33,330 bases of DNA, from IMG/VR virus record IMGVR_UViG_3300033141_003795, positions 1 through 33,330 of that record; one strand, 5' to 3'. Positions 3,680-32,366 of this stretch are shown in pieces (position 1 is the stretch's first letter; each line of letters begins with the position of its first letter). The translations under genes and the position numbers were made by a program. This stretch comes from a virus. The notes beneath the pieces were generated by a model. That model worked only from the letters and a program-made list of their open reading frames with translations, made no database searches and was not told the DNA's origin.

Positions 3680-3855
3680 AAATAGAAGATTTATCTAAAA
3701 ATTTGAAAATAGAAATAAAAAGACATAGCTATTTCCAAGAGTGTCCCGATTGTGGAGTAAGAACAAGTTTTAATGTTTGTCCTTATTGCAATGAAATTAT
3801 AGATGAATTTGACATAAAGAAAGTTGACATAAAGAAAGTTAGGAAAAATGAATAA
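3676..3855 (+). CDS. small zinc-ribbon protein, 59 aa
   Basis: A GTG start within a GTGA overlap. Residues 24-38 contain CPDC and CPYC knuckles separated by 11 residues, a typical rubredoxin-like zinc ribbon. The C-terminus contains a duplicated pentapeptide (DIKKV twice) made by a perfect 15-bp tandem repeat. The stop overlaps the next gene's start. It is probably a protein- or nucleic-acid-binding adaptor; the partner is unknown. Confidence 0.55.
   Translation: MKIEDLSKNLKIEIKRHSYFQECPDCGVRTSFNVCPYCNEIIDEFDIKKVDIKKVRKNE
3811..3840 (+). repeat. 15-bp tandem direct repeat, two copies
   Basis: GACATAAAGAAAGTT occurs twice head to tail with no mismatch (3811-3825 and 3826-3840), adding one DIKKV to the small zinc-ribbon protein. 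It contains two TTGACA-like boxes (3809-3814, 3824-3829), but no good -10 follows at 16-18 nt. It is a recent in-frame slippage or duplication. Confidence 0.9.
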
Positions 3856-4495
3856 AACAAAAATAGAATGGACAGATTATAGCTGGAATCCGATTACAGG
3901 TTGCCTGCGTAATTGCTGGTATTGTTATGCAAAAAAGTTATTTACCAGGTTTCATAGAAGTTTTGAGCCAACCTTTTATCCCGAAAGATTATCTGAACTA
4001 AGAAAACTAAGAAAACCGGCAAAAATCTTTGTATGTTCTGTGGCAGATTTATTTGCTGAATGGACACCAGAAGAATGGCGTGATGCAGTTTTAAATGAAA
4101 TCTCAAAACCAGAATATAAACATCTTACTTTTCAATTATTAACTAAAAATCCAGAAAATATTAGATTACAAGCTAAAGAAAACATCTGGATTGGTGCAAC
4201 AATCACAAAACAAAGAGAATTAGACTTAATGTATGCCCTCGTTAACAACTATCAGGGATTAAAGTTTTTATCTTTTGAGCCGTTACTTGAAGCAATTACC
4301 CCATCGCGGATAGATGGATATTTTAGGAAAATTGACTGGGTTATTATAGGGAAATTAACAGGAAGCAATAAAGTTAAATTGGAAAAGGAATGGGTGTATT
4401 TTTTAATTAGGAATTGTAGGGCAAATAATATACCAATATTCCTAAAAGACAATCTCAAATGGCATGAAAAAATACAGGAGTTTCCAAGTGATTAA
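3848..4495 (+). CDS. DUF5131 (phage Gp37/Gp68-like) radical-SAM-type protein, 215 aa
   Basis: The N-terminus KIEWTDYSWNPITGC is the signature of the phage Gp37/Gp68 family. Cys19, Cys23 and Cys26 form CxxxCxxC (CLRNCWYC), the [4Fe-4S] ligand pattern of radical SAM enzymes. Further family-like stretches are KIFVCSVADLF, FQLLTKNPENI and FLSFEPLL, with an IWIGATI strand between. The reaction catalysed by this family is not established to my knowledge. It sits among early genes, so it could modify a nucleic acid or a host factor. A weak AGGA precedes the ATG. Confidence 0.8.
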   Translation: MNKTKIEWTDYSWNPITGCLRNCWYCYAKKLFTRFHRSFEPTFYPERLSELRKLRKPAKIFVCSVADLFAEWTPEEWRDAVLNEISKPEYKHLTFQLLTKNPENIRLQAKENIWIGATITKQRELDLMYALVNNYQGLKFLSFEPLLEAITPSRIDGYFRKIDWVIIGKLTGSNKVKLEKEWVYFLIRNCRANNIPIFLKDNLKWHEKIQEFPSD

Positions 4496-28377: not shown

Positions 28378-29799
28378 TTAGTTCCAATGTATTACTACTC
28401 TATCTTTATAATTTCTACACCCCTGGTATTTTGCTGGTTTTATTTCTATTTTACCTATAAATATATCAATTAAATTTCTTTTAGCTTCATAATCAATATT
28501 TAAGATATTATCTATATCAAAATTCTTTATAAATTCGTATATATCGCTTTGCAGGTCGGTATCATCTTTTTGTTTTTGCCTTCTTAATATCTGCTCCTTT
28601 TCAAATTTAAGTTCACTGTTTCTTTTTCTGTAAGTTTCAATGTCGATTATTTTTGCAAGGTAGCTGTCAAGTAACCTTGACATTTTAGTGTCAATTTCTG
28701 CAATCTCTTTTTTGAAATTTTCCTTATCCATTTTGAACTCTTTCAAGTATTCTGAAAACCCGTCCTCAAAATCTATCTTAAACTTTTTTATTTTCTCTTT
28801 AATCTCATTCATAACATAATCATCAATTCTTGCAGTTATTTTGTTTTTGCAGGCCTTATATACAATTCCATAACAAAAATAACCGCCCCTATATCTTCTA
28901 AGTTTTTCCCTTACCATCTTTGAACCATAATCAATATTACCTTTCATCCCCCGACCGCATACTCCGCATTTTATATACCCAGTTAAAAGAAATTTTGAGG
29001 GCCTTGTAGGATTAACCCTTCTTGCTATGGTAATTTTTTTATTTACCTTGTCAAATATTTTTTTATCTATTATGGGTTTATGCTTACCCTTTACGACTTT
29101 GCCATTTGTTCTTATCATCCCGATATATATTGGGTTCTGGAGTAATCTTGTAACGGTTCTTATACAATACACACTGCCTCTTGGAGTTCTTATTCCAGCC
29201 TTATATAGATATTTTAAAAGTCCTGATACAGTCATACCCTCATAGAATAAACTGAAAATAAGTTTTACGTTTTTTGAGTGGATAGGGTCTACTATAAGTT
29301 TTCTATCTTTTCTTATATATCCAATTACATCTCCGCCTTCATATTCTCCATTTTCAAGTTTCTGAAGTTTTCCTCTTGATACACGCCTGCCTATCATGCG
29401 CCGTTCCAATTTTGAGAAGATATTTATCATATCCGAGAGAGCGTCTTTTGTTATATCGGACTGGTCAATTATACCTTCCTTTTCGGTGATAATAGAGGTC
29501 TTTGATTTTGCCAATTCATTTTTTAGTAGCCAAAAATCATTGCCTCTGGACAGCCTATCCTGGTCTGTAGCAATCAAGTAATCGGGTTTTAATTTAGGGA
29601 GGTCCTCAAGAAGCTGTAACATTGATGGTCTTTTCTCAATAGTAGCTCCCGATACTGCCTCATCTTCATAAACCTGTATTATTTTTATTTCATGCTTTTC
29701 GGCAAGCTTTTTTGTAATACTCCGCTGAGCTTCAAGAGTATAACTGTCTCTCTGCATCTCGGTTGAATATCTGTGGTATGCAAAGGCTGTTTTCATCAT
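28378..29799 (-). CDS. int: large serine recombinase (phage integrase), 473 aa
   Basis: Catalytic S12 in YHRYSTEMQRDS, then IATDQDRLSRG and FSKLERRMIGRRVSRG of the resolvase domain. A recombinase domain (VIGYIRKD..., LLKYLYKAGIRTPRG) is followed by a zinc-ribbon with CGVC and CYGIVYKAC, and then a coiled-coil segment and a C-terminal IEI..... The length is normal for phage serine integrases. It catalyses attP x attB integration. It has no Shine-Dalgarno and starts just after a promoter-hairpin unit on the + strand. Confidence 0.93.
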   Translation of the reverse strand: MMKTAFAYHRYSTEMQRDSYTLEAQRSITKKLAEKHEIKIIQVYEDEAVSGATIEKRPSMLQLLEDLPKLKPDYLIATDQDRLSRGNDFWLLKNELAKSKTSIITEKEGIIDQSDITKDALSDMINIFSKLERRMIGRRVSRGKLQKLENGEYEGGDVIGYIRKDRKLIVDPIHSKNVKLIFSLFYEGMTVSGLLKYLYKAGIRTPRGSVYCIRTVTRLLQNPIYIGMIRTNGKVVKGKHKPIIDKKIFDKVNKKITIARRVNPTRPSKFLLTGYIKCGVCGRGMKGNIDYGSKMVREKLRRYRGGYFCYGIVYKACKNKITARIDDYVMNEIKEKIKKFKIDFEDGFSEYLKEFKMDKENFKKEIAEIDTKMSRLLDSYLAKIIDIETYRKRNSELKFEKEQILRRQKQKDDTDLQSDIYEFIKNFDIDNILNIDYEAKRNLIDIFIGKIEIKPAKYQGCRNYKDRVVIHWN

Positions 29800-29833: not shown

Positions 29834-29862
29834 TTGACAAATATTTCATATAATTGTAGAAT
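29834..29862 (+). promoter_or_regulatory. consensus-like promoter firing away from the integrase gene
   Basis: TTGACA (29834-29839), a 17-nt spacer and TAGAAT (29857-29862) on the + strand. No + strand gene follows; only a hairpin with a T-tract lies within 80 nt. Both neighbours are on the - strand, so this promoter would make a short untranslated RNA. Confidence 0.6.
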
Positions 29863-29868
29863 AAACTC

Positions 29869-29939
29869 CCGAAAATTATAGATCAAATCGATAGGTCTTG
29901 ATAAAGGTTTTGTCCTTTATCATCACCTATCATTTTTTT
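29869..29939 (+). ncRNA. putative small RNA with long hairpin terminator
   Basis: Downstream of the promoter at 29834-29862. GATAGGT (29890-29896) pairs with ACCTATC (29925-29931). Inside, GATAAAGG (29900-29907) pairs with CCTTTATC (29914-29921), separated by unpaired CTT/ATC. A seven-T run (29933-29939) follows. The expected transcript is about 70 nt and its 3' end touches the stop of the NYN gene on the other strand. It may instead be the terminator of leftward genes or part of the integrase attachment site. Confidence 0.5.
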
Positions 29940-30438
29940 AGAATGAAAGTTTAAATCTCATATCATTCATAAAAAATAGATATTTTCTATATTTCTTCTT
30001 TTTATAAAGTTTAGAAAAATAATATCTATCAGGTATTATTAAGCGTAATAGTTTTCCACCTCTATCTAAATACTTTACTAAGCAATAATAATCACCATCA
30101 CTCGCAACTATTACTGCCTTATCATAATTTGTTATTTTTGTTAGAGTATAAAGTATTAAATTAGAATCTACATTGCCTTTCGTATCCCCATACCTATTGA
30201 TGATTATATGCTTAAATTTTAAAATAAATCCATATTTTATTAATTCTTTGTAAAGAGTTTTTTTTCTAGGAATATATCCTATAAAATAATATGCTTTTAC
30301 GACATCAAATTTATCTTTCAAATATAGCCTAAATTTTTTATAATCTAATTGCCATGCTTGATATTGAATACCTAAATGTAAATTATTCCCATCTATAAAA
30401 GCATAGTTTTTATGTTTTCTTTTTACCTCGTGATTCAA
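29938..30438 (-). CDS. NYN-domain (PIN-like) RNase, 166 aa
   Basis: TTG start with AAGGGA upstream. D16 in FIDGNNL, D91 in GNVDSNL and D114/D116 in ASDGDYY form the acidic site expected for NYN/LabA-type nucleases. It is followed by a basic C-terminus. It overlaps the PD-(D/E)XK-like gene by 29 nt and is likely transcribed with it. A cytoplasmic metal-dependent RNase role is inferred; target unknown. It is in the lysogeny region, where cargo and defence genes are common. Confidence 0.8.
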   Translation of the reverse strand: MNHEVKRKHKNYAFIDGNNLHLGIQYQAWQLDYKKFRLYLKDKFDVVKAYYFIGYIPRKKTLYKELIKYGFILKFKHIIINRYGDTKGNVDSNLILYTLTKITNYDKAVIVASDGDYYCLVKYLDRGGKLLRLIIPDRYYFSKLYKKKKYRKYLFFMNDMRFKLSF

Positions 30439-30691
30439 GTTCTATCCCTTTTTTTCTTGCTAATTCAATTGCTGGTTCAGTGAAACCACTTTTACTAATT
30501 ATTTTTTTTATTCCTTTCTTTGCTGAATCTTTTACTACTCCGCTGTGAACTCGTTCTTTCCAATCTTTGACTTCCACTTTTATTTCACCTCGAGTATAAT
30601 CAGGTTTCCCAGGTCCGCCTATGTGCTTACCTCCATGTTTTTTTGCTTGTTGCTTTTCGTATCTATATCCTCTTCTTTGAGCTTTTTTCAT
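30410..30691 (-). CDS. PD-(D/E)XK-like small nuclease, 93 aa
   Basis: GAGGAGGA RBS. The sequence GYRYEKQQAKKHGG (E12), GGPGKPDY (D31) and IKVEVKDW (E40, K42) shows a PD-X8-ExK pattern expected of a restriction-endonuclease-like fold, close to Holliday-junction-resolvase or Mrr-type nucleases. The C-terminal KSGFTEPAIELARKKGIELESRGKKK also fits. At 93 residues it is very small and may work as a dimer. It overlaps the NYN gene, so the two may form one system. Confidence 0.65.
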   Translation of the reverse strand: MKKAQRRGYRYEKQQAKKHGGKHIGGPGKPDYTRGEIKVEVKDWKERVHSGVVKDSAKKGIKKIISKSGFTEPAIELARKKGIELESRGKKKT

Positions 30692-30946
30692 TTTTCCTCC
30701 TCAATTATATTTCCTATCCAAACTTTATCTATAATATACGAATACTGTTTTCATGGTTTAAAACCTATGTTATCATAGTAATCACCACTATTATCATTAC
30801 TAAAATTTTTAATATCATTTTCAATTTTGAAGGAGTACATTATTTTTTTGCGCATGATGATTAAGGTTAAAAACCAGTATAATATTCAAATTTTCCATCA
30901 AAATTTTTCTTTATCTCATGTTTGAATATTTATTTACTTTACGTTT
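30692..30946. other. 255-bp AT-rich intergenic region
   Basis: Between a membrane protein and the nuclease pair, both on the - strand. No convincing ORF. It holds a likely - strand promoter region for the nuclease pair (TATATTATAG-like AT stretch), an 11-bp dyad (GGTTTAAAACC, 30755-30765), and a 10-bp inverted repeat at 30881-30930. Confidence 0.5.
30881..30930. repeat. 10-bp perfect inverted repeat with 30-nt spacer
   Basis: AATATTCAAA (30881-30890) and TTTGAATATT (30921-30930). It lies just downstream of the membrane-protein stop on the - strand and could form a stem in its 3' UTR or be a protein-binding dyad. No function assigned. Confidence 0.7.
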
Positions 30947-31673: not shown

Positions 31674-32366
31674 TTAGCTCTCTGGTGTAAGGGGCGGTAC
31701 TAATTTTATTACTGCTGGAGGATCACAATAACAGGGAGAGGCAAGTATTTCAACCATCGTGATATCATCTGGTATATCTAAAGTTACCCATCCTCTCATT
31801 TTATCTCCAGGAGCTAAATCACCTGCTCCTAATCTTGGTTCTTTACCACCCCAAGCTGCATTATCATATCTATAAGAGTCTGCATCTCTTAGAGCATAAT
31901 TAAGTCCATTATATCCATGAACTTCATCACTTAAATTTTGGATTTCAACATCTAATACTGCTAACCTTCTCCCTTCATCAGGAGCTGAATATTTATCATA
32001 ATCAGTATAGTTTTCTACAGAATGTATTATTACTGAGCAAACCTCTTCTCCTGTATAGGAATCTAAGAATAAAATCTCATCACCTATTCTAAATTCTTGC
32101 GGCGCTTTTGGTTCTTCCTCGATTTTCTCTTCAGCTTCTTCAGCAAGCTTTTTATCTAATTCACCTTGTACTCGTTGTAAATCTTCTTTTACAGCTTTAA
32201 GTTCTTTATCAAGATCTCTTATAACTTGATTTTTACTTTCTAATTCTTTTTGGAGTTCTTCAACTTTACCACTGGAACTACTATCAGGTGAGCAGGATAT
32301 AAAACTAAAAATTAATGCTAAAATAAGAAAAATGATACTAAAATATAACTTTTTTTTAATTTTCAT
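31674..32366 (-). CDS. prophage lipoprotein with DUF4352-like domain, 230 aa
   Basis: AAGGAG RBS 7 nt before ATG. Signal peptide with lipobox ending in C25 (FSFISC), so it is anchored to the outer face of the membrane. Residues 35-90 are a long coiled coil (EELQKELESKNQVIRDLDKELKAVKEDL), then an immunoglobulin-like DUF4352/telokin-type domain (RRLAVLDVEIQNLSDE). Lipoproteins in this position between repressor and integrase in Firmicutes prophages can block superinfecting phages (Ltp-type). Role inferred from position and architecture. Confidence 0.75.
   Translation of the reverse strand: MKIKKKLYFSIIFLILALIFSFISCSPDSSSSGKVEELQKELESKNQVIRDLDKELKAVKEDLQRVQGELDKKLAEEAEEKIEEEPKAPQEFRIGDEILFLDSYTGEEVCSVIIHSVENYTDYDKYSAPDEGRRLAVLDVEIQNLSDEVHGYNGLNYALRDADSYRYDNAAWGGKEPRLGAGDLAPGDKMRGWVTLDIPDDITMVEILASPCYCDPPAVIKLVPPLTPES

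Follow-up and report, generated by a model that had tools for sequence, protein, structure and literature searches.

The window analysed here is the IMG/VR record IMGVR_UViG_3300033141_003795 at its full length (33,330 nt), a tailed temperate phage that carries genes for terminase, portal, protease, HK97-type capsid, tail, endolysin, serine recombinase, repressor and an ImmA-like protease. At about 57%, its terminase is closest to those of phages infecting Lachnospiraceae and kindred clostridia of the gut, and a scan with the integrase found no kin phages. This integrase, a large serine recombinase, is encoded on the minus strand at 28378–29799 (Pfam Resolvase, 2.2e-26; Recombinase, 1.7e-17). 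Between it and the immunity genes lie two further minus-strand genes, one for a 166-aa NYN-fold nuclease (29938–30438, TTG start, stop codon at 29938–29940) and one for a 93-aa mini Mrr_cat protein of the PD-(D/E)XK type (30410–30691, ATG start). A small structured RNA gene (29869–29939) occupies the plus strand between the start of the recombinase gene and the NYN stop codon. The Mrr-like gene overlaps the start of the NYN gene by 29 nt and, because the TTG of NYN falls within it, the two genes are likely to be co-transcribed.

The lysogeny region also encodes a predicted lipoprotein with a DUF4352 domain (31674–32366, minus strand; Pfam 3.1e-12), which may be exposed at the surface as a factor in superinfection or immunity. 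A 29-nt direct repeat with 76% identity stands on either side of the NYN/Mrr segment (29768–29796 and 30726–30754); it is probably due to chance, the alternative being a relic of an insertion. At 3848–4495, on the plus strand, the phage encodes a Gp37/Gp68-like protein that has a CxxxCxYCY motif and belongs to phrog_2045 (unknown function, E 4e-57).

The 166-aa protein matches the Pfam NYN family (PF01936) with 48.3 bits, against a curated cut-off of 24.2 (E=2e-12), and its nearest solved relative is VPA0982 (2qip, E=2.2e-6). The AlphaFold model (pLDDT 93.1) has a PIN-like fold, for which 2qip is the top Foldseek match (E=1.3e-6) and the MARF1 NYN is among the next ones; no ToxN-type structure is present among the 50 listed matches. 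Across 38 homologues, residues D16, D91, D114 and D116 vary little or not at all. The protein is accordingly named here as a NYN-fold nuclease, with ribonuclease activity predicted from its sequence. A search of the PADLOC defence library returned nothing beyond the generic NYN model PDLC01154.

The match of the 93-aa protein to Mrr_cat (PF04471) is narrowly over the cut-off of 21, with 22.6 bits (E=1.2e-4). Its residues E12, D31, E40 and K42 are all kept in a CPR homologue of 52% identity, so the PD-(D/E)XK motif is not a product of chance. The AlphaFold model of this protein, with one sequence as input, reached a pLDDT of 57.7 and was too poor for use.

The RNA gene has its own promoter (29834–29862, plus strand), formed by TTGACA at 29834–29839, a 17-nt spacer and TAGAAT at 29857–29862, which agrees with the consensus at 11 of 12 positions. 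The transcript, whose start we infer at about 29869, carries a leader AUCA at 29882 and a 16-bp, two-part hairpin (29890–29931). The hairpin is composed of the outer stem GATAGGT/ACCTATC (29890–29896 and 29925–29931), the inner stem TGATAAAGG/CCTTTATCA (29899–29907 and 29914–29922) and the apical loop TTTTGT (29908–29913), and its fold z-score is -5.3. The terminator U7 (29933–29939) overlaps the NYN stop codon, with the RNA gene running toward NYN in a convergent, tail-to-tail arrangement. From the -10 box to the leader there are 19 nt, rather than the 6–9 nt of most CPR copies, so the 5' end of the phage RNA probably extends some 12 nt further. A covariance model (R2), trained on CPR sequences only and on no viral sequence, has its top match in the window at 29880–29938 (23.1 bits, E=0.0023; next-best, 14.3). 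None of the 4227 Rfam covariance models matches the RNA in the window or at about 40 related loci. Two other readings of the element were rejected. A hairpin in the 3' UTR of the NYN transcript is ruled out by the promoter, the U-run and the -10 geometry, all of the opposite strand; a small ORF is hardly compatible with the finding that a start-codon ORF of at least 12 codons, starting within the first 22 nt, occurs in only 16 of 56 cases.

Most of what an earlier note had read from the letters of this DNA is sustained by these results: the two ORFs with their overlap, the cargo site, the NYN fold with D16, D91 and D114/116, the PD-(D/E)XK mini-protein and the lack of a nameable defence system. 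The structure prediction that it had proposed gave a confident model for NYN. Its small RNA at 29869–29939 is a real sequence feature as well, corrected here in that the gene has a promoter of its own, is directed toward NYN and places its U-tract over the stop codon.

Occurrence in Patescibacteria and in viruses

The first bacterial match to the phage NYN protein came from a Candidatus Yanofskybacteria genome. Strong matches are present in 86 of 287 Patescibacteria (CPR) genomes, with as many as four or more copies in one genome, and most of these proteins share 38–55% identity with that of the phage. The CPR NYN loci have no neighbouring protein family in common. A Mrr homologue beside NYN was found neither in the first set of CPR NYN loci nor in the viral NYN loci, and a search of the 287 genomes with the Mrr protein gave a single homologue (52%, E 2e-21). 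The gene of this 95-aa protein stands beside those of a DUF4145 protein, an N6/N4 DNA methylase and a BsaWI-type restriction enzyme (L116:889-3252, in genome G176, contig C3), a restriction-modification cluster from which NYN is absent. The phages, plasmids and viral contigs scanned yielded no mini-Mrr homologue, with either single-sequence or alignment queries.

The earlier note had interpreted NYN and mini-Mrr as one unit, a possible two-nuclease defence or abortive system. The overlap of the two genes on the same strand and the conservation of both active sites would suit such a system, but its check for co-conserved neighbours failed, in the scanned CPR and viral NYN loci as well as around the lone Mrr homologue, and we regard the system as very improbable. 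While the two nuclease-like genes, their cargo position and the adjacent small RNA remain from that interpretation, the unit does not. Since the NYN loci scanned lack Mrr and the only Mrr homologue found lies in a cluster without NYN, the pair is not, on this genomic evidence, a conserved system. The Mrr-like gene is probably an unrelated neighbour on a common transcript and not a component of the module; its product may be an accessory restriction nuclease.

The RNA gene, on the other hand, recurs beside NYN. In CPR it has a regular layout. The leader AUCA(C)NA comes 6–9 nt after a sigma-70 promoter (TTGACA-17-TATAAT); next is the hairpin, in which an internal loop separates the outer from the inner stem and a conserved loop caps the latter, and last a U-run. 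The RNA is about 55–60 nt long and lies on the strand opposite to NYN, its U-run abutting or overlapping the NYN stop codon, and a promoter equivalent to that of the phage is found in most CPR loci. A descriptor of promoter, leader, hairpin and U-run matched 52 of 74 NYN 3' ends versus 10 of 211 control ORF ends (p~4e-29), one of the 10 control matches being the RNA of a second NYN. An initial, stricter version had matched 35 of 74 and was relaxed equally for cases and controls. With the remaining loci judged by eye, about 69 of 75 NYN copies have an RNA gene; about 5 of the 75 are without one, L005, L032, L041, L056 and L070 being the clear exceptions.

The covariance model R2 gave 79 matches in 61 of the 287 CPR genomes, 63 of which adjoin NYN, either as a gene or as a fragment (58 at no more than 250 nt from a listed NYN match and 5 on closer reading, some of them partial or at a contig end). 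An R2 match and NYN co-occur in 51 of the 61 genomes (p=2e-23). Fifteen matches are orphan RNA genes, with no NYN in the fetched DNA (up to 1.5 kb per side), and one of the 79 was left out. Lone RNAs are thus commoner than lone NYN genes (15 versus about 5 of 75). Promoter and hairpin are intact in most orphans, and no alternative partner common to their loci was seen (L081–L083, L086, L087, L089–L095, L097, L098 and L100). On the strength of these comparisons, a NYN+RNA module is well supported, with the small RNA as the conserved partner of NYN.

Some loci depart from the simple arrangement. Tandem RNA hairpins are found 3' of one NYN at L055:1469-1599 and in L045, and L076 has one hairpin on each side of NYN. 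In nine loci (L011, L013, L014, L018, L020, L024, L026, L028 and L035) the two genes overlap, such that the strand opposite the RNA gene codes for C-terminal NYN tails such as GRSKP or RKDETLQG.

NYNs from plasmids of Alphaproteobacteria and cyanobacteria (25–35% identity) are without the RNA gene, and the RNA partner therefore marks this NYN subfamily. An AUCACGA leader and hairpin 3' of NYN in plasmid pMl1 of S. meliloti (L105) is not repeated in related rhizobial plasmids and is likely a chance match.

Three further viral contigs carry NYN and the RNA, without Mrr, and R2 recognizes their RNAs with E values of 9.7e-15, 8.9e-9 and 5.5e-8. As judged from gene roles read from sequence, the pair lies between portal-type and other phage genes in L078, after tail genes in L079/L102 and beside an integrase in L080/L104. 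These loci were recovered with an alignment query; when viral contigs, phages and plasmids were scanned with one sequence of NYN or Mrr, nothing close came up. An RNA pattern scan of viral contigs found two known loci again and two new matches without NYN, which look like chance. Judged by these three loci, the module behaves as a self-promoted moron. The window NYN forms a long branch inside a CPR-dominated tree, and the phage may infect either a member of CPR or a clostridium into which the module has passed.

Structure and inheritance of the RNA

The RNAs were assigned to classes by eye from the loop sequence, prior to tree building. Class A, with the loop UUUYGU, has the same architecture in CPR and viral relatives. 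Double changes are present in 14 of its 15 tested pairs, and its covariation of 0.366 exceeds both the shuffled value of 0.254 (0/500) and the slid controls. In class C (loop CUACGUG, 10 sequences), the inner stem shows 4 to 6 double changes per pair and is rewritten in most sequences, with the bases of the loop and the internal loop fixed. The loop and leader bases of the RNA are conserved while the stems covary, which reads as the pattern of a protein-recognized RNA. A leader–loop pseudoknot was tested too; pairing is possible in 72% of cells, with no double changes and no better than in shuffles.

The RNA class follows the phylogeny of the nuclease. On the maximum-likelihood NYN tree the class changes 13 times, versus 37.2 times when shuffled (0/200). 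Class C corresponds to one clade, and its aligned members L038, L048, L058, L065 and L077 have in common a NYN insertion of about 13 residues. Since single genomes hold different classes with different NYN copies (G006, G079, G107 and G249), the class goes with the nuclease and not with the genome. Co-inheritance alone would be no proof of contact, because the two genes are linked; combined with the conserved unpaired bases, it makes contact between NYN and the RNA likely.

Two other explanations of the hairpin can be weighed against these data. It could serve as a mere terminator, or be a REP-like DNA element that a mobile NYN gene has left behind, with no functional RNA; it does end in a U-run, orphan copies occur, and NYN copies are scattered and multicopy. 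This is scarcely credible given a conserved TTGACA/TATAAT promoter that reads into the hairpin, the conserved transcript start and loop, the covariation, the agreement of class with NYN phylogeny, the promoter retained by most orphans and the low rate of matches at other ORF ends. Alternatively, the convergent RNA could pair with the 3' end of the NYN mRNA and lead to its decay, as in type I systems, with no protein–RNA complex. The tail-to-tail overlap makes the RNA complementary to that end by construction, but antisense pairing has no need of a conserved loop and leader across copies 40–50% identical, nor of covarying stems. The RNA is mostly a tight terminator hairpin, and orphan copies retain promoter and hairpin; antisense control is, in our judgement, improbable.

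Proposed function and comparison with known systems

The reading that we favour, and to which we give an even chance, is that NYN is an RNA-neutralized ribonuclease of a kind similar to type III toxin–antitoxin systems, although convergent and self-promoted, carried by the phage as a moron. The unit would consist of a NYN-fold ribonuclease and a structured RNA of about 55–70 nt with its own strong promoter, arranged tail-to-tail. The RNA would fold as a two-part hairpin; its cognate NYN would bind the unpaired bases of loop and leader and be kept inactive by the bound RNA. If transcription halted or the RNA were lost, through infection or loss of the element, NYN would be released and could cut RNA of the cell or of a phage. 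The moron could serve the present phage for superinfection exclusion or prophage stabilization.

Linkage, promoter, covarying hairpin, conserved unpaired bases and the match of class to NYN phylogeny are observed in the sequences; we infer RNA–protein binding, inhibition, toxicity and an anti-phage role. NYN+RNA may act as a toxin or in anti-phage defence. An RNA-controlled ribonuclease is the best supported reading because of the linkage, the excess of lone RNAs, the patchy multicopy distribution, the phage carriage, the class matching and the occasional tandem hairpins. Several observations speak against toxin–antitoxin: the leader–loop pseudoknot is unsupported, the RNA is in most cases single and its gene convergent, the orphan RNAs could point to an action of the RNA on other targets, and the phage RNA has a leader spacing of 19 nt and a modest R2 score (23 bits).

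A ribonucleoprotein that is not a toxin–antitoxin pair is unlikely, though it deserves consideration. The RNA would then target or activate NYN as its guide, scaffold or cofactor, or NYN would mature the RNA, for instance in anti-phage cleavage or RNA processing. Conserved unpaired bases and class-specific co-inheritance suit any specific complex, orphan RNAs occur, and there is a precedent in the trimming of small RNAs by NYN proposed in type III CRISPR (PMC11346440). The RNA, however, has no variable guide-like segment, orphan RNAs whose contig region holds no NYN would be left with no partner, and the solitary, patchy distribution and the phage carriage would seem to suit a toxin–antitoxin better.

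We tentatively propose, at somewhat under even probability, an undescribed protein–RNA system in which NYN and a dedicated, structured, convergent RNA with a separate promoter, occurring widely across Patescibacteria and mobilized by phages, act either as a toxin with an RNA antitoxin outside types I and III or as an RNA-dependent NYN ribonucleoprotein in phage conflict. In CPR, to our knowledge, conflict systems have rarely been characterized and small RNAs hardly at all. If true, the proposal would add a widespread nuclease-plus-RNA module of about 0.6 kb to these bacteria and a new mode of pairing between a ribonuclease and an RNA partner. The class-specific conserved loops predict which RNA pairs with which nuclease, and phage carriage suggests superinfection control.

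Convergent antisense RNAs are known from type I toxin–antitoxin systems such as txpA/RatA and bsrG/SR4. The NYN module resembles them in its tail-to-tail RNA over the 3' end of the protein gene, hence antisense to the NYN mRNA. It differs in that NYN is a 166-aa globular enzyme, whereas the usual type I toxin is a small hydrophobic membrane peptide, and in the conserved unpaired motifs and stem covariation of its RNA.

With type III systems (ToxIN, CptIN and TenpIN/AbiQ), the module shares a nuclease protein joined to a structured small RNA, an RNA class matched to the protein clade, presence on mobile elements and phages, and occasional tandem RNA repeats (here L045 and L055). A pseudoknot is a hallmark of type III antitoxins, and a leader–loop pseudoknot is not supported for this RNA. 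In type III operons the antitoxin RNA lies upstream as repeats under one promoter (PMC5086642). The NYN module RNA is convergent and has its own promoter, rather than being upstream on the same strand with a shared promoter and a terminator between (PMC5086642); it has one hairpin in the window and at almost every locus, two in tandem being confined to L045 and L055; and the fold assigned here to the protein is NYN/PIN-like, not of the ToxN/CptN/TenpN type. As promoter layout, repeats and toxin fold all fall outside the type III definition (PMC5086642), the module is not filed under it.

As for the proteins, NYN shares fold and catalytic aspartates with NYN/LabA-like nucleases (PF01936; PADLOC PDLC01154; VPA0982; the B. 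fragilis CRISPR NYN), and differs from the 25–35% identical plasmid members in having an RNA gene. The 93-aa neighbour has the motif and C-terminal region of Mrr_cat restriction endonucleases (PF04471), but it is short, lacks a specificity domain and stands outside the conserved module. No literature on a NYN and RNA pair was found in the open-access papers covered here. Set beside these systems, the NYN+RNA module appears as a variant of RNA-antitoxin modules, with a real chance of being a new kind.
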